A DNA stretch of 64,000 bases from Bradyrhizobium sp. 200. GTDB taxonomy: Bacteria; Pseudomonadota; Alphaproteobacteria; Rhizobiales; Xanthobacteraceae. Made by a program: the position numbers and the translations under genes. Below, in pieces: positions 28,481 through 45,428 of the stretch (its first letter is position 1; each line of letters begins with the position of its first letter). The stretch lies in contig NZ_CP064689.1 in assembly GCF_023100945.1 (NCBI RefSeq), forward strand, positions 1,532,001 to 1,596,000, given 5' to 3'. The notes below the pieces were generated by a model. The model saw only the letters and a program-made list of their open reading frames with translations. It was not told the DNA's origin and ran no database searches.

Positions 28481-29299
28481 CTACTTCGCCAATTCCTTCG
28501 ATCGCTTCGTCGCCGCGGCAATCGCGCGGATCATCAGTGGCTGCATTCCATCCTTGCCCATCAGCACTTCCAGCGCGGCCGCCGTGGTGCCGCCGGGCGA
28601 GGTGACGTTCTGGCGCAGCGTGGCGGAAGGAAGATCCGAGCGATGCAGCAGTTCGCCGGAGCCCGCGACGGTTTCGCGCGCAAGCTTGGTGGCGAGATCC
28701 GCCGGCAGGCCGGCTTCGACGCCGGCGCGTGCGAGTTCTTCGGCGAGCAGGAACACATAGGCCGGGCCGGAACCGGAGACGGCGGTCACCGCATCCATCA
28801 GGCTTTCATCGTCGACCCATTCGACCGAGCCCGTGGCGCGCAATAGCGCGTCGGCGGTGGCGCGCTGCGCGGCGCTGACATTCTTCGCCGGCGCAGCAAC
28901 GGTAATGCCGCGGCCGATCGCGGCCGGCGTGTTCGGCATGGCGCGAACCACCATGCCGCCGCAGACTTCTTCAAGCGCTGCAATCGTGGTGCCCGCCATG
29001 ATCGAGACCACCAGCGTGTTCGGTCCGACGAGCTTCTTCAGCGTCGGACCTGCTTCGCGGAACATCTGCGGCTTCACCGCGACCACCAGCGTATCGGCCG
29101 TGCCGGCATCCTTCGGATTGAGGCGAATGCCGCTGGCGGCGAGCGCGCTGATCTCGGCCGACGGCTGCGGCTCGATCACCACCACGCGCTTGCCGTCGAG
29201 GCCGCCGGCCAGCCATCCCGTCAGCATCGCGCCGCCCATCTTGCCGGCGCCGGCAAGGGCGATGGTGCCGTGGGTGTTTTGAAGGGCGCTGTTGTTCAA
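28481..29299 (-). CDS. proC: pyrroline-5-carboxylate reductase
   Basis: ProC reduces pyrroline-5-carboxylate to proline with NAD(P)H. The 272-residue product has the N-terminal Rossmann motif IALAGAGKMGGAMLTGWL, VVAVKPQMFREA, VVRAMPNTPAAIGRG and the C-terminal signature TAVSGSGPAYVFLLAEELARAGVEAGL with the ETVAGSGELL and VTSPGGTTAAAL segments. The start is taken as TTG 29299, which gives the family's usual length. The frame stays open upstream only because it runs into a palindromic repeat (29318-29442) whose sequence would encode MGPCFRRDD. An upstream start inside the repeat cannot be excluded. Confidence 0.93.
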   Translation of the reverse strand: MNNSALQNTHGTIALAGAGKMGGAMLTGWLAGGLDGKRVVVIEPQPSAEISALAASGIRLNPKDAGTADTLVVAVKPQMFREAGPTLKKLVGPNTLVVSIMAGTTIAALEEVCGGMVVRAMPNTPAAIGRGITVAAPAKNVSAAQRATADALLRATGSVEWVDDESLMDAVTAVSGSGPAYVFLLAEELARAGVEAGLPADLATKLARETVAGSGELLHRSDLPSATLRQNVTSPGGTTAAALEVLMGKDGMQPLMIRAIAAATKRSKELAK

Positions 29300-36700: not shown

Positions 36701-36797
36701 GCCCCTCACGATCGGCTGATTGTCAATTCCCCCGCCGCGTCTATAAACTCGGCGGCGGGAGGAGGCACGTCCGTGGAGACGGGCGGCCGAGACGATC

Positions 36798-38024
36798 ATG
36801 TTCGAAGGACACGATCCCTATCTCGTCGCGCTCTCGGTGGTGATCGCGATTCTGGGAGGATACACCGGCTTCGGCCTCGCCGCGCGCATCCGCGGGACGC
36901 CGGATGCCAGCCATCGCCTGCTGCTCGCAGGCGCCGCGTTCTTTCTCGCCATCGGGATCTGGACCATGCATTTCGTCGGCATGCTGGCGGCGCCGCTGCC
37001 GACAGGTGCCGTCTATCTGGTGCTGCCGACCATCGTATCGTTCCTGATCTGCGCGCTGGTCGTGGGTATTTCCCTGTTCTTCGTCAGCGTCGGCGAGCCA
37101 TCGATGCTGCGCGTGGCCTCCTCGGCGGTGCTGCTCGGGGTCGGCATCGCCAGTATGCACTATGTCGGCATGCACGGATTGTCGGGCAATTTCGCCATGA
37201 CGCATGACGCCGCCATGGTCGTGCTTTCGGTCCTGATTGCGATCGCCACGGCTTATGGCGGCTTGCGTGCATTCCTGGCGCGGCAGGGCGGCGTGCAACT
37301 CGCACTGAGCGCGGTCGCCTACGGCTTCGCGGTGTCAGGCATGCACTACACCGCGATGGCCGGCATGCATCTGGTTCCGGCGTCGCAAGGATCGCGCCAC
37401 CATGTCGAAGGGCTGGCCGCGTCGTCGCAAATGCTGTCGCTGGTCGTGGCGTTGCTCTGCTTCGTGATTGCGGCGGGCTTCCTGCTGTCGCTGGTGCCGG
37501 ATCCGCGCAGGGCCGCGGCGATGACAGATGCGGCTGCCGCCATCCCCGGGGCAGTTGCCGCTGAGGCCGCTGTCCTCGTCGCAACGATCCCGCCTACGGA
37601 CTCGACTGCCGCGACGACCAGCCCGCGGCTGCGGCCGACGCCGCTCGGCGGCATCGGCCAGCCGCCCCGCGTCGCACCGGCGCCACGATTGCCGGTTGAA
37701 GGCGCCGACGGCACCCATTTCATCGATACCGCCGACGTCAGGAGCGTCCGGGCCGACGCTCACTATACAAAGGTGCACGACGGCACCCGGGAGCGGATGT
37801 GCCCGTGGTCGATTTCGGAGGCCGAAGCCCAGCTTGACCCCGGACTGTTCGTCCGGGTGCACCGCAGCCACATCGTGGCGATGGCCCATGTCACTTTCGT
37901 CCGCAAGGAGGGCGATGGCGCGATCATCGAACTCGACGGCCCGTCGCCGCATCGGGTGCCGGTCAGCCGCGCCAAGATCGCCGAGGTGAAGGCTCGCCTC
38001 GGGCTGGCACGGCGCCACGCGTAG
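36798..38024 (+). CDS. coxC: CoxC-like regulator: MHYT membrane sensor fused to LytTR DNA-binding domain
   Basis: A 408-residue membrane transcription factor. The N-terminal ~235 residues contain seven membrane helices with three MHYT-type motifs (MHFV 57-60, MHYV 120-123, MHYT 182-185), a module proposed to bind a metal and sense O2, CO or NO. A Pro/Ala-rich linker (about 236-295) leads to a LytTR domain (about 300-402) with FIDTADVRSVRADAHYTKVHDG and LFVRVHRSHIVAMAHV. This architecture is that of CoxC and CoxH from the Oligotropha carboxidovorans CO cluster, and coxMSL follows directly. No heme-PAS domain (as in RcoM) is present. It probably controls cox transcription; the ligand is inferred. 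Confidence 0.88.
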   Translation: MFEGHDPYLVALSVVIAILGGYTGFGLAARIRGTPDASHRLLLAGAAFFLAIGIWTMHFVGMLAAPLPTGAVYLVLPTIVSFLICALVVGISLFFVSVGEPSMLRVASSAVLLGVGIASMHYVGMHGLSGNFAMTHDAAMVVLSVLIAIATAYGGLRAFLARQGGVQLALSAVAYGFAVSGMHYTAMAGMHLVPASQGSRHHVEGLAASSQMLSLVVALLCFVIAAGFLLSLVPDPRRAAAMTDAAAAIPGAVAAEAAVLVATIPPTDSTAATTSPRLRPTPLGGIGQPPRVAPAPRLPVEGADGTHFIDTADVRSVRADAHYTKVHDGTRERMCPWSISEAEAQLDPGLFVRVHRSHIVAMAHVTFVRKEGDGAIIELDGPSPHRVPVSRAKIAEVKARLGLARRHA

Positions 38025-38058
38025 CGCCTCATGGATCCCGTTAGGTCGTAAAGCCTGA

Positions 38059-38092
38059 CGCATTTCGTGCGCGGTTATCCGCATTTCGTGCG
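38059..38092. promoter_or_regulatory. two perfect 13-bp direct repeats 21 bp apart upstream of coxM
   Basis: CGCATTTCGTGCG occurs at 38059-38071 and again at 38080-38092, 21 bases start to start. LytTR regulators typically bind pairs of ~9-bp direct repeats spaced 21 bp apart, i.e. two helical turns. The site lies between the LytTR gene coxC and coxM (ATG 38186). Each copy contains TTCGTG, which also fits the TTnnnG element reported for RcoM, another LytTR-domain CO regulator. Confidence 0.7.
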
Positions 38093-38185
38093 ATTTTCCC
38101 GGCCTTGTGCCCCTGCGATTGCGCTTTAGAACGGCTCCAATCAGCTTCGGCTCCAACGTCCGCAAAGGACGAGTGGAGGAAGCGC

Positions 38186-39049
38186 ATGATCCCTGGCCCA
38201 TTCAGCTATCACCGTCCGGCGACCGTGGCCGACGCGGTCAAACTGCTCTCGACCCTGGGTGATGAGGCCCGTCCGCTGGCCGGCGGCCACAGCCTGGTTC
38301 CAATGATGAAGCTCAGGCTCGCCACGCCGGAGCATCTGGTCGATCTGCACGGCGTCGCCGGGCTGAAGGGCATCCGCCGCGACGGCAACACAATCGTGAT
38401 CGGGGCGATGACCACCCAGCACGAATTGCTGGCGTCCGACGAGATCGGCAAGTCCTTGCCCATTCTGGACGAAACCGCGCTTCTGATCGCCGATCCCCAG
38501 GTGCGCTATCGCGGTACCATCGGCGGCAATGTCGCCAATGGCGATCCCGGCAACGATATGCCGGCGCTGATGATGACCCTGGGCGCGAGCTACCGGCTCG
38601 AAGGCGCGTCCGGCGGACGCGACGTCGCGGCATCGGAATTCTACCAAGGCGCCTACTTCACCGCGCTCGAGCCCGGTGAACTCCTGACCTTAGTTTCTAT
38701 CCCGGTCCCGCCGGCCGGTCACGGCTACGCCTATGAAAAGCTGAAGCGCAAGGTGGGCGATTACGCCACCGCTGCTGCCGCGGTCGTGCTGACGATGGCG
38801 GGCGGCAAGGTCGCGACCTGCCAGATCGGCCTGACCAACCTTGCTGAAACGCCGCTGCTCGCCGACGCCGCTGCGAAAGCCGTGATCGGCACCAGTCTCG
38901 ATCCGGCCACGCTGAAGAAGGCGGCGGCCGCCGCCGAAGCGATCATGTCGCCGGCCGCGGACGCCCGCGGCCCTGTCGAATACCGCAAACATGTCGGCGG
39001 CATCATGGTGATGCGCGCGCTGCAGCGCGCCGCCGGCCGTGCAAGCTGA
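38186..39049 (+). CDS. coxM: CO dehydrogenase medium (FAD) subunit
   Basis: The flavoprotein subunit of aerobic Mo-Cu CO dehydrogenase; it passes electrons from the CoxS iron-sulfur clusters to the quinone pool. The 287-residue length is close to the Oligotropha subunit (288). Both FAD-binding motifs are at the expected positions: AGGHS (32-36) and TIGGN (111-115). The C-terminal CO_deh_flav_C domain includes [17 protein letters not shown]. The ATG at 38186 follows GGAGGA. It is first of coxM-S-L, the gene order of form I (true CO-oxidising) enzymes. Confidence 0.96.
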
Positions 39050-39062
39050 GGGGGACCACAAC

Positions 39063-39563
39063 ATGGCAAAAACCCACATCACCATGAAGGTGAACGGCGT
39101 CGAGGTCGAAGGCATCACTGAGCCGCGCACGCTGCTGGTGCATTTCATCCGCGAAAACCTGGCGATGACCGGCACCCATATCGGCTGCGAAACCACCCAT
39201 TGCGGCGCCTGCACCGTCGATATCGACGGCATGTCGGTAAAGTCCTGCACCATGTTCGCGGTGCAGGCTAACGGTTCCGACATCACCACCATCGAAGGCA
39301 TGGCCAATGCGGACGGCTCCTTGTCGGCGCTGCAGGAAGGCTTTCGCATGATGCATGGCCTGCAATGCGGCTTCTGCACGCCCGGCATGATCGTGCGCGC
39401 GCATCGCCTGCTCAAGGAGAACCCGCAGCCTACGGAAGACGAAATCCGGATGGGCATCTCGGGCAACATCTGCCGCTGCACCGGTTACCAGAACATCGTC
39501 AAGGCCATTCAATATGCCGCCGCCAAGATCAATGGCGTTGAATTCCAGGAGGCTGCGGAATGA
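39063..39563 (+). CDS. coxS: CO dehydrogenase small (2x[2Fe-2S]) subunit
   Basis: The iron-sulfur subunit of 166 residues, the same length as in Oligotropha. The plant-ferredoxin-like N-terminal cluster has C42, C47, C50 and C62 ([16 protein letters not shown]...SC). The C-terminal helical domain has C102, C105, C137 and C139 ([10 protein letters not shown] and GNICRCTGY). It carries electrons from the Mo-Cu site in CoxL to FAD in CoxM. The ATG is 14 bases after the coxM stop with GAGGGGG upstream, and its stop overlaps coxL by four bases (ATGA), fixing stoichiometric translation. Confidence 0.97.
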
Positions 39564-41980
39564 ACGACATGACTCCCACGCGGGAACAACGTGAAGCCAA
39601 GCTCGAAGGCATGGGCTGCAAACGCAAGCGGGTCGAGGACATCCGCTTCACGCAGGGCAGGGGCAACTATGTCGACGACGTCAAACTACCGGGCATGCTG
39701 CACGGCGATTTTGTCAGATCGCCGCATGCCCATGCGCGGGTCAAGAAGATCGACGACGCCGAGGCGCTGAAGGTGCCGGGCGTGCTCGCTGTGATCACCG
39801 CCGAGACGCTGAAGACCGTGAACCTCGCCTGGATGCCGACGCTCGCCGGCGACGTGCAGATGGTGCTGGCCGACGGCAAGGTGCTGTTCCAGAATCAGGA
39901 GGTCGCTTTCGTCGTCGCCACCGACCGCTACGCCGCCGACGACGGCATCAACAAGGTAGTGGTCGAATACGAGCCGCTGCCGCCTTTGATCGATCCGTTC
40001 AAGGCGATGGACAAGGATGCGCCGGTGCTGCGCGAGGATCTCGCCGGCAAGACCACGGGCGCGCATGGGCCGCGCAAGCATCACAACCACATCTTCGAGT
40101 GGACCGTCGGCGACAAGGATCTGACGGACGCCGCCTTCCGCAAGGCGGAGGTGACGATCAAGGAGATGATCTCCTACCATCGCACCCATCCGTCGCCGCT
40201 TGAAACCTGCCAGTGCGTCTGCTCGTTCGACAAGATCAAGGGCGAACTGACGATCTGGGGCACCTTCCAGGCGCCGCATGTGATCCGCACGGTCGTAGCC
40301 CTGATCGCCAAAATTCCCGAGCACAAGATCCATGTGATCTCGCCGGATATCGGCGGCGGCTTCGGCAACAAGGTCGGCGCCTATCCCGGCTATATCTGCG
40401 CGGCGGTGGCTTCGATCGTCACCGGCAAGCCGGTGAAATGGGTCGAGGACCGCATCGAGAACCTGACCGCGACCTCATTCGCGCGCGACTATCACATGAC
40501 GACCGAAATCGCCTCGACCAAAGAAGGCAAGGTCACGGGCCTGCGCGTCCACGTGCTGGCCGATCACGGCGCGTTCGACGCCTGCGCCGATCCGTCGAAA
40601 TGGCCGGCCGGCTTCTTCAACATCGTCACCGGATCGTACGATTTCCCGACCGCACATTTGTCGGTGGACGGCATCTACACCAACAAGGCGCCGGGCGGCG
40701 TCGCCTATCGATGTTCGTTCCGCGTCACCGAAGCGGCATACTGCATCGAGCGCGCGATGGATATTCTGGCGCAGAAACTGGGGATGGATCCGGCCGAACT
40801 GCGGCTGAAGAATTTCATCAAGCCGGAGCAGTTCCCGTACCACTCGGCACTGGGCTGGGAGTACGATTCCGGCGACTACGCCACCGCCCTGCGAAAGGCG
40901 ATGGAGACAGTGAAATACGCCGAACTCCGCATGGAGCAGGCGGCGTCGCGCGAAGCGTTCAAGCGCGGCGAAACCCGTGAGATCATGGGTGTCGGCGTAT
41001 CTTTCTTCACCGAGATCGTCGGCGCCGGCCCCTCGAAGAATTGCGACATTCTCGGCATCGCCATGTTCGACTCCTGCGAAATCCGCCTGCACCCGACGGG
41101 TGCGGGCATCGCGCGGGTCGGCTCCAAGAGCCAGGGTCAGGGCCATGAGACCACCTGGGCGCAGATCATCGCCACCGAGATCGGCATTCCCGCCGATGAC
41201 ATCATGGTCGAGGAGGGCAATACCGATACTGCTCCTTACGGGCTCGGCACCTACGGTTCGCGCTCGACGCCGGTGGCGGGCGCCGCGATTGCCATGGCCG
41301 CGCGAAAAATCAAGGCCAAGGCGCAGATGATCGCGGCCTACAAGCTCGAGGTGCATGAAGACGACCTCGAATGGGATATCGACGGCTTCCGCGTCAAGGG
41401 CCTGCCGGAGAAGACCATGTCGATGAAGGACATCTGCTGGGCGGCGTATAATTCGGTTCCTCCCGGCATGGAGCCGGGGCTGGAAGCGGTGAGCTATTAC
41501 GATCCGCCCAACATGACCTATCCGTTCGGCGCCTATATCTGCGTGATGAACATCGACGTCGATACCGGGGTCTACAAGGTCAGGCGCTTCTATGCGCTCG
41601 ATGACTGCGGCACCCGCATCAACCCGATGATCATCGAGGGCCAGGTGCATGGCGGCCTCACCGAAGCCTTCGCGATCGCGATGGGCCAGGAAATCCGCTA
41701 CGACGACGAAGGCAACGTGGTCACCGGCTCGTTCATGGATTTCTTCATGCCGACCGCGGTCGAGACCCCGCATTGGGAGACCGACTTCACCGTCACGCCG
41801 TCGCCGCATCATCCGATCGGTGCCAAGGGTGTCGGCGAGAGCCCGAATGTCGGCGGCGTGCCGGCGTTCTCCAACGCCGTCAACGATGCCTTCTCGTTCC
41901 TTGGCAGCACGCACATCCAGATGCCGCATGATTACTGGCGCAACTGGAAGGCTGCGAAGAATCTGGGAGTGTTTGTTTAA
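39560..41980 (+). CDS. coxL: form I CO dehydrogenase large (Mo-Cu) subunit
   Basis: The catalytic subunit that oxidises CO to CO2 with water at a [CuSMoO2] centre bound to molybdopterin cytosine dinucleotide. The 806-residue protein has the form I active-site loop V381-A-Y-R-C-S-F-R388; C385 (TGT at 40712-40714) is the copper ligand, equivalent to Cys388 of Oligotropha. Form II proteins, whose substrate is disputed, have AYRGAGR here. The catalytic base Glu is in AKGVGESP (E760). Other MCD contacts such as IGGGFGNK (about 264-271) and [12 protein letters not shown] are intact. Nothing indicates damage, so a functional enzyme is expected. Confidence 0.98.
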
Positions 41981-41983
41981 GCG

Positions 41984-42856
41984 ATGAAGAATCGTGACGA
42001 GATCGCGCAAGCGTTGGCGGTGTCAGGCTATATCGCCGACAACGAGCTTGCGACCGCGATCTCGCTGATGCAATTGCTCCGGCGTCCGCTGTTGCTGGAA
42101 GGCGAGGCGGGCGTCGGCAAGACGGAGGTCGCCAAGGCGCTGGCATCGGTGCATGCGACGGAACTGATCCGCCTGCAATGCTACGAGGGGCTGGATCAGT
42201 CGGCCGCGCTCTATGAGTGGAACTACCAGCGGCAATTGCTGTCGATCCAGGCGCATCGCGGCGATAACCCCGATGATGTCGAACACCAGATCTTCTCGGA
42301 AAAATACCTGCTGGAGCGGCCGCTGCTGGCCGCCATCCGGCGCGACACGCCGCCGGTGTTGCTGATCGACGAGATCGATCGCGCCGACGACGAGTTCGAG
42401 GCGTTCCTGCTCGAACTGCTCTCGGACTTCCAGGTCTCGATCCCCGAGCTTGGCACGATCAAGGCCACCGCGATCCCGCATGTGGTGCTGACCTCGAACG
42501 GGACGCGCGAACTTTCCGACGCGCTGCGCCGCCGTTGCCTCTATCATTATGTCGACTACCCCGATGTCGATCGCGAAGCGCGCATCATTATGGCGCGGAT
42601 CGAGGGCGCCGGCGCTTCGCTTGCGCTGCAGATTGCGCGCATGGTGGAAGGCGTCCGCAAGGAAGAATTGCGCAAGGTCCCGGGCGTCGCCGAGACCTTG
42701 GACTGGGCGGCGGCACTGGTTGGCCTCGACGTCCGCGACCTGCACGACGCGCCCGAAACGGTACATGAGACCCTGATGTGCTTGCTCAAGACGCAGGAGG
42801 ACACGTCGCGGGTGACACGCGAGGTGACCGGGCGTCTGCTGGGGAGGGTCGCATGA
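41984..42856 (+). CDS. coxD: CoxD, MoxR-type AAA+ ATPase for CO dehydrogenase maturation
   Basis: A 290-residue AAA+ chaperone of the MoxR family. Walker A is GEAGVGKTE (40-48), Walker B VLLIDEIDR (125-133), sensor 1 HVVLTSNGTRELSDALRRRCLYHYVDYP with the arginine finger. In Oligotropha, CoxD is required to sulfurate the Mo centre before copper is inserted. It starts three bases after coxL and its stop overlaps coxE by four bases (ATGA), so it belongs to the same operon. MoxR ATPases work with VWA proteins, here CoxE. Confidence 0.96.
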   Translation: MKNRDEIAQALAVSGYIADNELATAISLMQLLRRPLLLEGEAGVGKTEVAKALASVHATELIRLQCYEGLDQSAALYEWNYQRQLLSIQAHRGDNPDDVEHQIFSEKYLLERPLLAAIRRDTPPVLLIDEIDRADDEFEAFLLELLSDFQVSIPELGTIKATAIPHVVLTSNGTRELSDALRRRCLYHYVDYPDVDREARIIMARIEGAGASLALQIARMVEGVRKEELRKVPGVAETLDWAAALVGLDVRDLHDAPETVHETLMCLLKTQEDTSRVTREVTGRLLGRVA

Positions 42857-44064
42857 GCTGCTGCGGCACCAGTCCCGGCTATGACGAGATCGATCAGGTC
42901 TCTCGCCTCGTCTCGGCAAAGCTGGCCGCGTTCCTCAGAACCTTGCGCGACAACGGATTTGCCGTTGGCCTCCACGAAGGCCGGGACGCCGCTTCCCTGA
43001 TGACGGCGGGTTACGCGAGGACTCCCTCGCTGTTGCGTTCGGCGTTCAAGCATCTGTTCTCGGCGCGGAAATCCGACTGGGAAAGATTCGATGGGCTGTT
43101 CGACGCGTTCTGGCTCGGCAAGCGCGTGCGGTCGCGATCCCTCACGATAGGGTCGGCAGGAGCGACGAATAATCCGTCACTGAAGAGCTTGCCCGGTCAT
43201 CGGCCAGAGCCGCGCGCCTCCGGCGACGGCGCGATGGATCAGATCCCGTCCGCTGACGGCGCCGACGACAATCGTAGCGGCGAGGGACGCATGGAAGGCG
43301 CCTCGCGCGCCGACAATCTCGCCGAGGTGGACTTTCGCAAGATCGCCGATCCCGCGCAGATCGAGGAGGCCCATGCCGCCGCCGCCCGGCTGGCGCGGGC
43401 CATGCGTACGCGGCTGACCCGCCGCGACCTGGCGCGCCGCCGCGGCTACCGGCTCGATCTGCGGCGCACCATTCACGGCAATATCAGCCATGGCGGCGTG
43501 CCGATCGAGCTCGTCAGGCGCCGGCGCAAGACCAAGCCGCTGCGGCTCGTCATGCTGCTCGATGCTTCGGGTTCGATGAGCATGTACACGGGCGTATTCC
43601 TGCGCTTCATCCACGGCGTACTCGACCAGTTTCGCGAGGCCGAGGCGTTCCTGTTCCACACGCGGCTGGCGCATGTCTCCGACGCGATGAAGGAAAAGGA
43701 CGCGGCGCGCGCGCTCGATCGTCTCTCGATCATGGCGCAGGGCGCAGGCGGCGGCACCAGGATCGGCGAGAGCCTGCAAACGTTCAACCGCTGGCACGCG
43801 GCGCGCGTGATCCATTCGCGCACCGTCGTGATGATCGTGTCCGACGGCTACGAGACCGGTGATGCCGCGTTGTTGGGCCGCGAAATGGCGGCGCTCGGCC
43901 GCCGCTGCCGCCGCATCGTCTGGCTCAATCCGATGATGGCGTGGGAAGGCTACGCGCCCGTTGCTGCGGGCATCAAGGCGGCGCTGCCGCATGTCGATCT
44001 CTATGCGCCCGCCAATACGCTCAGCAGCCTGACTGCGCTCGAACCCTATTTGGCGAAACTATAG
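42853..44064 (+). CDS. coxE: CoxE, VWA-domain protein for CO dehydrogenase maturation
   Basis: A 403-residue protein with a C-terminal von Willebrand factor A domain. The metal-ion-dependent adhesion site starts with DASGSMS (D237, S239, S241), with GAGGGTRIGESLQTF and MIVSDGYETGD supplying the other MIDAS residues. The N-terminal half is an all-helical CoxE-type region (VSAKLAAFLRTLRDNGFAVGL) and a polar linker (about 100-150). It acts with the CoxD ATPase in building the copper part of the Mo-Cu site. The ATG at 42853 overlaps the coxD stop. The linker is a likely flexible region. Confidence 0.94.
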   Translation: MSCCGTSPGYDEIDQVSRLVSAKLAAFLRTLRDNGFAVGLHEGRDAASLMTAGYARTPSLLRSAFKHLFSARKSDWERFDGLFDAFWLGKRVRSRSLTIGSAGATNNPSLKSLPGHRPEPRASGDGAMDQIPSADGADDNRSGEGRMEGASRADNLAEVDFRKIADPAQIEEAHAAAARLARAMRTRLTRRDLARRRGYRLDLRRTIHGNISHGGVPIELVRRRRKTKPLRLVMLLDASGSMSMYTGVFLRFIHGVLDQFREAEAFLFHTRLAHVSDAMKEKDAARALDRLSIMAQGAGGGTRIGESLQTFNRWHAARVIHSRTVVMIVSDGYETGDAALLGREMAALGRRCRRIVWLNPMMAWEGYAPVAAGIKAALPHVDLYAPANTLSSLTALEPYLAKL

Positions 44065-44078
44065 GTGGGGCCAACCCG

Positions 44079-44912
44079 ATGAGCGCGCATGTCGAAGTGA
44101 TGGATCTGGTCGCGCAGATGAAATCCGCCGAGCAGCCGTTCGTGCTGGCGACCGTCGTGCGCACGGTATCGGTGACGGCGGCGAAAGCGGGCGCGAAAGC
44201 GATCATTCGCCCTGACGGTACCATCGTTGCAGGCTGGATCGGCGGCGGCTGTGCGCGGGGCGCGGTGCTGAAAGCCGCGCGCGAAGCGCTGCTGGACGGG
44301 GAGCCGCGCATGGTGTCGGTGCAGCCCGAAAATCTCCTCGCCGAACTCGGCGTCAAGCCGGGCGATCATCGCGAGGGGATTCGCTTCGCCAGCAATATGT
44401 GTCCGAGCAAGGGGACCATGGATATCTTCGTCGAGCCGGTGCTGCCGCATCCATCTCTGGTGATTTTTGGCGCAAGCCCGGTCGCGATGTCGCTGGCTGC
44501 GCAGGCCCGCCAGCTCGGCTATCACGTTACGCTGGCTGTGCCGGCCGCCGATATCGCGGCCGAGCCGGATGCCCATGTCATCGTCGACGGGTTCGCGCCG
44601 CGTTACCTCAACGAGGCCAGGCGTTTCGTCGTAGTCTCGACCCAGGGCAAGGGTGATGAGAATGCCTTGCGCGCGGCGCTCGCCATCAAGGCCGAGTATC
44701 ACGCCTTCGTCGGCAGCCGCCGCAAGATGGCGGCGCTGCGTGAAAAGCTCATCGCGGGCGGATCGGAAGCGGCTGCGATCGACCGCGTCAAGGCGCCCGC
44801 CGGGCTCGATCTCGGTGCGATCACGCCGGAAGAGATCGCGATGTCGATCCTCGCCGAAATCACCATCGAGCGCCGGCGTGGCCAGCGCGCGACCAATCCC
44901 GTGAGGGAGTAA
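44079..44912 (+). CDS. coxF: CoxF, XdhC/CoxI-family maturation protein
   Basis: A 277-residue protein of the XdhC/CoxI/CoxF family that prepares molybdenum cofactor for insertion into hydroxylases. The N-terminal XdhC domain has the G-rich motif TIVAGWIGGGCARGAVLKAA (around 48-67), and the C-terminal Rossmann-like domain has SLVIFGASPVAMSLAAQARQLGYHV. CoxF in Oligotropha is assigned to copper insertion. The ATG at 44079 follows the coxE stop by 14 bases with GGTGGGG upstream; a longer frame overlapping coxE is not supported. Confidence 0.93.
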   Translation: MSAHVEVMDLVAQMKSAEQPFVLATVVRTVSVTAAKAGAKAIIRPDGTIVAGWIGGGCARGAVLKAAREALLDGEPRMVSVQPENLLAELGVKPGDHREGIRFASNMCPSKGTMDIFVEPVLPHPSLVIFGASPVAMSLAAQARQLGYHVTLAVPAADIAAEPDAHVIVDGFAPRYLNEARRFVVVSTQGKGDENALRAALAIKAEYHAFVGSRRKMAALREKLIAGGSEAAAIDRVKAPAGLDLGAITPEEIAMSILAEITIERRRGQRATNPVRE

Positions 44913-44921
44913 GGACTGACC

Positions 44922-45428
44922 ATGCAGATGAACGACAGCCAGCGTATCCCGGCTTCGAAGGAAGCGGTGTGGGCGGCGCTCAACGATCCCGAGATTTTGA
45001 AACAGTGCATCCCCGGCTGTCAGTCCCTCGACATGTCCTCGCCCACCGAGATGACCGCAACCGTCGTCTTCAAGGTCGGGCCCGTGAAGGCGACTTTTGG
45101 CGGCAAGGTGACCCTGTCGGATCTCGATCCGCCGAACAGTTACCGCATTTCGGGCGAGGGCTCTGGCGGCGTCGCTGGTTTTGCAAAAGGCGGCGCCGCG
45201 GTGCGTCTCGAAGCGGAAGGGCCCGACGTGACGGTGCTGCACTACGACGTCGATGCTCAGATCGGCGGCAAACTCGCGCAGCTTGGTGCGCGGCTGATCG
45301 ATTCCACCGCAAAGAAACTGGCGGGCCAATTCTTTGCTTCGTTTGGACAGGTTGTTGGCGGAGCTGCAGCGGCTCCTGCGGAAGCAGCGCCCAAGGGCCG
45401 GTTGGGCAAGCTGATTGGCGCGGTCTAG
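44922..45428 (+). CDS. coxG: CoxG, SRPBCC-family CO dehydrogenase accessory protein
   Basis: A 168-residue START-like (SRPBCC) domain protein with a short Ala/Pro-rich tail. Family-typical segments are RIPASKEAVWAALNDPEILKQCIPGCQSL, VGPVKATFGGKVTLSDLDPP and GSGGVAGFAKGGAAVRL. It ends in RLGKLIGAV, a possible amphipathic anchor. In Oligotropha CoxG is needed to attach the enzyme to the membrane, and mycobacterial CoxG has been proposed to deliver quinone to the enzyme. It closes the coxMSLDEFG operon. No coxH, coxI or coxK follow. Confidence 0.95.
   Translation: MQMNDSQRIPASKEAVWAALNDPEILKQCIPGCQSLDMSSPTEMTATVVFKVGPVKATFGGKVTLSDLDPPNSYRISGEGSGGVAGFAKGGAAVRLEAEGPDVTVLHYDVDAQIGGKLAQLGARLIDSTAKKLAGQFFASFGQVVGGAAAAPAEAAPKGRLGKLIGAV

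Follow-up and report, generated by a model that had tools for sequence, protein, structure and literature searches.

The closest described system is the CoxC operator at the coxB promoter (PcoxB) of Afipia carboxidovorans OM5, published in 2024 in Nucleic Acids Research (PMC11347149). There, the site was established by reporter assays and EMSA and comprises three TTNNNGCN repeats, which are said to overlap the predicted -35; the LytTR domain of OM5 CoxC binds a PcoxB fragment with an apparent KD of ~25 nM, and substitution of the TTNNNGCN repeats weakens CoxC binding. Furthermore, OM5 CoxC, whether full-length or truncated, acts as a repressor of PcoxB in E. coli, and membrane-bound CoxC is released from PcoxB by CO in a copper-dependent manner (PMC11347149). 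The same text describes the RcoM1 operator as a triplet of TTCNNGCA repeats with gaps of 12–13 bp (i.e. 20–21 bp start-to-start), and canonical LytTR sites as a pair of 9-bp direct repeats 10–13 bp apart. The OM5 data supersede the statement in an earlier note on the DNA studied here that the binding site of an MHYT-LytTR CoxC is not established.

The locus compared with these systems lies in the window (the whole 64,000-nucleotide stretch of DNA that was analysed), where coxC and coxM are separated by a gap of 161 nt (38025-38185, with the coxM ATG at 38186). The gene 5' of coxC encodes lumazine synthase and is not coxB. The repeats, their conservation, their phase and the promoter pattern were read from the sequence, and the features are as follows:

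36798..38024, + strand: coxC, encoding a membrane MHYT-LytTR regulator of 408 aa (Pfam MHYT, E 4.4e-32, three stretches).
38044..38062, + strand: leader box GGTC-N7-CTGACGCA, abutting repeat 1 (from column conservation).
38059..38071, + strand: first reported copy, with the repeat 1 core TTCGTGC at 38064-38070 (of 121 distinct operators, 101 have the exact core and 120 match at 6/7 positions or more).
38080..38092, + strand: second reported copy, with the repeat 2 core TTCGTGC at 38085-38091 (70 of 121 have the exact core, and 119 match at 5/7 positions or more).
38104..38110, + strand: repeat 3, CTTGTGC, 19 bp after repeat 2 (GTG in 119 of 121; core exact in only five).
38119..38124, + strand: predicted -35, TTGCGC, 8 bp after repeat 3 (94 of 121 operators have TTGC here or at +19).
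38142..38147, + strand: predicted -10, CAGCTT (NANNNT), after a 17-bp spacer (84 of 94 have NANNNT at this spacing).
38155, + strand: predicted transcription start, placed from the -10 and falling within the conserved CCAACGTC.
38157..38171, + strand: 5'UTR inverted repeat CGTCC-N5-GGACG, 5' of the coxM Shine-Dalgarno (simple count).
38186..39049, + strand: coxM, the first target gene (Pfam FAD_binding_5 and CO_deh_flav_C).
39048..45428, + strand: coxS, coxL, coxD, coxE, coxF and coxG (Pfam).

The LytTR domain of the coxC product occupies residues 305-401 (Pfam, E 9.8e-17), and the protein is 39.9% identical to OM5 CoxC. With a probability of about 85%, we take 38059-38110 to be a CoxC operator at the coxM promoter, through which CoxC would set CO-dependent transcription of coxMSLDEFG. 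In this mechanism, the LytTR domains of CoxC would read three TTCGTGC-like repeats that lie on one helix face about two turns apart, in an array ending 8 bp before a putative weak sigma-70-type promoter, TTGCGC-N17-CAGCTT, that would drive coxMSLDEFG. CO would act on the copper-MHYT domain, the occupancy of the array by CoxC would shift and transcription would change; by analogy with OM5, apo-CoxC would bind and repress, and CO would release it. We infer CoxC binding, the CO response, the sign of regulation and a contact with RNA polymerase, by which CoxC would act rather than by covering the -35; this contact is suggested by the fixed helical phase of the array.

The array shares with the OM5 PcoxB site an MHYT-LytTR CoxC, three TTNNNGC-type direct repeats and cox genes as targets. 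In contrast, it lies at coxM with spacings of 21 and 19 bp, whereas PcoxB lies at coxB with spacings of 29 and 26 bp (from the printed primers), and it ends 8 bp upstream of its predicted TTGCGC -35 while the published PcoxB repeats are described as overlapping theirs. The RcoM1 operator, in the same text, resembles the array in repeat spacing, in its position upstream of the -35 and in its association with a LytTR-domain regulator; however, RcoM1 is an activator of the heme protein type, whereas the regulator adjoining the array is MHYT-LytTR by Pfam and thus not the heme-binding LytTR regulator of an RcoM operator, and the eighth base of the repeat is G in the window and A in RcoM1. Canonical LytTR sites, as described there, are likewise direct repeats about two turns apart, although the window has three repeats and a different half-site sequence. 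Against the half-site TTNNNGCN, repeats 1 and 2 (TTCGTGCG) match and repeat 3 (CTTGTGCC) deviates at the first T. A repeat spacing of ~20–21 bp, the half-site TTNNNGCN and an adjoining LytTR regulator gene are traits of a LytTR-type operator that the 38059-38110 array displays (spacings of 21 and 19 bp, with coxC alongside), and the array is a predicted operator of the known CoxC/RcoM kind.

The earlier note had reported two identical 13-mers 21 bp apart between a LytTR-domain gene and coxM, and in this it was accurate as to coordinates, exactness and spacing. The 13-mer CGCATTTCGTGCG occurs on the + strand at 38059-38071 and 38080-38092 (21 bp start-to-start); these are its only exact copies in the window, and the pair occurs once in the 9,494,728-base genome, in which a reversed control pattern had no match. 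Under an independent-base model with the base composition of the gap, 2.7e-4 exact 13-mer pairs are expected by chance, and 3e-6 for a pair spaced exactly 21 bp. The degenerate third copy, CTTGTGC at 38104-38110, had been missed; it is supported by conservation, the GTG core of repeat 3 being present in 119 of 121 distinct operators.

To place these repeats among their relatives, 391 family genomes were searched for CoxC, 131 of which gave a match (MHYT-only proteins counted in). The loci examined comprised 70 family places, five of 165 matching plasmid records and the best 80 of 581 named genome-contig places, with L001 excluded as a duplicate of the window's own locus, leaving 155. Of these, 147 have coxM near coxC (L020, L052, L074, L076, L083, L114, L128 and L158 were dropped), and since the sources overlap, identical 82-nt segments were merged into 121 distinct operators; the sampled relatives are not independent. 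Three TTCGTGC-like repeats, which start at 38064, 38085 and 38104 in the window, were found across these gaps (147 gaps, 121 distinct segments), with a best triple of at least 17/21 in 118 of the 121 distinct gaps compared to none of 2,420 dinucleotide shuffles. Repeat 3 matches at 4/7 or more positions in 120 of 121 and at 5/7 or more in 105; that of the window matches TTCGTGC at just 5/7. The geometry is tight: spacings are 21+19 (90 operators), 20+20 (16), 21+20 (10) or others (5), and in 106 of the 121 operators repeats 1 and 3 start 40 bp apart, compared with 41 bp in a further 12.

Poor triples were observed in two gaps, L060 and L067 (11–12), while L233 scores 14, as does L230, where the scan omitted the first repeat; no operator was found in the ~500 nt examined after coxC in L128. 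Three named Rhodobacterales plasmids (L206, L207 and L209) mostly retain at least two TTCGTGC-like repeats, as do most of the class-level genomes whose CoxC is 29–35% identical. Repeat 3 is often poor in distant loci (2–4 of 7 in L192, L193, L195, L197, L206 and L209), and the best triple of L194 (5, 4, 7) sits 365 nt from coxM. The repeats are conserved in orthologous clusters, as the earlier note's prediction of a CoxC (LytTR) operator supposed, but they number three rather than two, and the unit kept across genomes is a TTCGTGC core flanked by CGCA or CCGC, the 13-bp repeat itself being variable. CoxC and one of its sites are already published; what seems to be new is the three-repeat site at coxM, together with how tightly its geometry is fixed and how widely it is conserved.

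Across 72 non-redundant operators of clade A, the GTC and CTGACGCA columns of the leader box upstream of repeat 1 carry 1.4–2.0 bits. Nineteen clade-B operators have a related box, G-t-CA...cTGACGCA, so that the box is conserved in both CoxC clades, and several clade-B boxes come near to GCGTCAG-N5-CTGACGC. Its reading as a strict inverted repeat was rejected by eye, as the two arms do not covary.

Beyond the array, 94 of the 121 operators have a TTGC at a distance from repeat 3 of precisely 8 or 19 nt, compared to a shuffled rate of 0.7%, and NANNNT follows exactly 17 nt after TTGCNN in 84 of these 94 (spacer 18 in eight; spacers 14–16, 19 and 20 in none or one). The +8 and +19 classes differ by 11 bp, i.e. 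one helical turn. The TTGC box and NANNNT are predicted to form a weak sigma-70-type promoter, and the operator would span about -91 to -45 from the predicted start, upstream of the predicted -35. The account in the earlier note included neither this promoter nor the fixed operator-promoter phase. A plain consensus scan of the gap returned no promoter, and a search of the open literature found neither a mapped coxM transcription start nor a CoxC site at coxM. Two other assignments were rejected by eye: a sigma-54 promoter, for which a -24 GG is lacking next to the TTGC box, and repeat 3 as the -35, for which there is no conserved hexamer 17 nt further on. In the 5'UTR, a 5-nt element with an exact complement downstream was counted in 47 of 94 loci, four of these being CGTCT (a simple count without shuffle control).

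The position of the operator upstream of the -35, in two classes one turn apart, favours contact with RNA polymerase. It is possible, though we hold it tentatively, that CoxC is a polymerase-contacting regulator locked to one helix face and not a repressor that covers the -35, that one frame serves several targets, and that the published PcoxB register needs revision. This frame (an array of ~40 bp followed by the -35 at a distance of 8 or 19 bp) would be common to coxM, OM5 coxB and an EAL-type gene in Sinorhizobium, Rhizobium and Mesorhizobium; CO would flip CoxC between a repressing and an activating contact; and at PcoxB the published 'repeat I' would fall in a spacer and 'repeat III' would be the -35-like box of the promoter.

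The OM5 plasmid pHCG3 carries an array at coxM, at 28732 (TTCGTGC, TTGGTGA and CTGGTGC, spaced 20+20, with TTGAAT at +8), which is unreported as far as the available literature goes. Nine places on both strands of the 133-kb plasmid reach at least 16/21, and the score alone thus does not single out PcoxB; seven of these places lack TTG at +8 or +19, and the only two that have it are the coxM array and a place within the published PcoxB fragment. In the proposed frame, PcoxB reads TTCATGC-N14-TTGGTGG-N13-TTTGGGC, followed by TTGATG (+8) and TTGCGG (+19), and the operator can be read with the same geometry as at coxM and without overlap of the -35. According to the printed primers of PMC11347149, the published substitutions hit TTACCGCC, TTTGGGCA and TTGCGGCA, whose starts are 29 and 26 bp apart. 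On the proposed frame, the first would lie in a spacer and yet alter the CCGC conserved beside repeat 2, the second would be repeat 3, and the third would be the +19 TTGC box. G154, which also carries an array at coxM (score 16), has an orthologous PcoxB in which TTCATGC and TTGGTGG are both preserved but CC replaces the TT of published repeat I. As coxB is present in two of 14 loci checked, one of them itself OM5-like, the re-reading is based on OM5 and G154. On pHCG3 (L072:21209-22409), two overlapping MHYT-domain CDS (36724-37116 and 37082-37924) are also annotated 3' of coxG, as if coxH were split.

With respect to the sign of regulation at coxM, we lean slightly towards repression, by analogy with what is published for OM5. 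Activation, or a dual role, is the lesser of the two possibilities but a serious one, in which CO-bound CoxC would recruit RNA polymerase in the manner of RcoM and the repression seen at PcoxB would be a partial picture. It fits the geometry, with repeats upstream of the predicted -35 in the +8 and +19 registers, and it fits the poor -10 hexamers (GACCGT and CAGCCT), since a poor -10 is typical of activator-dependent promoters. Conversely, PcoxB, which shares the coxM geometry in the proposed frame, is repressed by OM5 CoxC in E. coli, and CO removes the membrane-bound protein (PMC11347149).

Whichever sign applies, the CoxC operator reading may be weighed against the array being conserved by mere descent or as part of another element, such as a 5'UTR structure, a coxC terminator or an insertion-sequence remnant. 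The relatedness of most loci within the Hyphomicrobiales and the partly inverted-repeat character of the leader box lend this some support. However, the repeats persist where CoxC is only ~30% identical, a terminator scan of the gap found none, and the array is held in position relative to coxM and not to the end of coxC: repeat 1 lies 122–222 nt from the coxM start (middle half 135–151) while its separation from the coxC stop varies freely from 5 to 2,306 nt (147 loci). In L088 the array survives a ~2.3-kb insertion after coxC and is still 137 nt from coxM, and in G360 it lies 5' of coxM although coxC is on a different contig. The within-family control (form I coxL without CoxC) is nearly empty, as 82 of 84 coxL genomes have a CoxC match (lists compared by hand; the exceptions are G202 and G097, the latter cut by a contig end), and class-level genomes and plasmids were therefore used as a control. 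Five coxMSL clusters without a CoxC match (L185, L199, L200, L201 and L208) score 11–14, no better than shuffles commonly do (20 to 199 of 200 reach the same); no LytTR gene was seen in their scanned or annotated parts, where the upstream DNA covered was only ~300 nt in L201 and ~1.3 kb in L185. Conservation by descent or through another element is, on this evidence, very unlikely. As a separate observation, coxC in L020 and L114 is followed by foreign-looking DNA, neither the array nor coxM being present in the DNA examined, and G360, the source of L020, carries coxM and the array on another contig.

The specificity of the pattern was assessed with a relaxed three-repeat pattern, which among the 391 family genomes occurs at 54 places in 52 genomes (reversed control, four places). 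Directly behind a coxC gene are 49 of these places, in 47 genomes (lists compared by hand); two precede coxM on contigs without coxC (G360 and G097) and three lie elsewhere (G132, G219 and G343). The relaxed pattern is still strict and misses many CoxC loci (e.g. G138, G381 and G337), including those in which repeat 3 ends in GTGA. Among 385 class-level genomes it was found in three, namely the window's own, G460 (between coxC and coxM) and G593 (in repetitive DNA), which equals the reversed control (three), so that there the pattern alone performs no better than its control. Additionally, in 23 further coxM upstream regions, a triple of at least 16 is present in 14 of the 15 with CoxC (the exception, L186, scores 15), and eight have no CoxC match. 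That the operator is instead read by a LytTR protein other than CoxC, as the similar triples of L203 and L204 beside another LytTR gene (17 and 16; taken as RcoM-like) and of L191 (17/21, where the DNA examined contains no CoxC and a scan of two ORFs found no LytTR) might suggest, is the least probable reading of all, as 51 of the 54 family places lie behind coxC or before coxM and the sole match in the window's genome is directly behind coxC.

In five loci, CoxC, a three-repeat array and a TTGC at +19 precede an EAL-type gene and not coxM: L074 and L227 (Sinorhizobium meliloti), L076 and L228 (Rhizobium leguminosarum) and L158 (Mesorhizobium camelthorni). The assignment is based on a partial Pfam EAL domain in L074 (E 2.5e-11) and L076 (E 7.9e-10), on existing EAL-domain annotations for L227 and L228, and on sequence likeness only in L158. 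This gene may represent an unexpected, rewired target of CoxC.

CoxC governs aerobic CO oxidation and is the sole experimentally studied MHYT gas-sensing transcription factor found in our literature search. A predicted site that is kept beyond one genus would provide a defined target at which the action of CoxC may be measured, and the geometry of the array calls into question the register published for the operator as well as a repressor model built on '-35 overlap'. Furthermore, the conserved array would allow the CoxC regulon to be read from genomes, the putative EAL-type target included.
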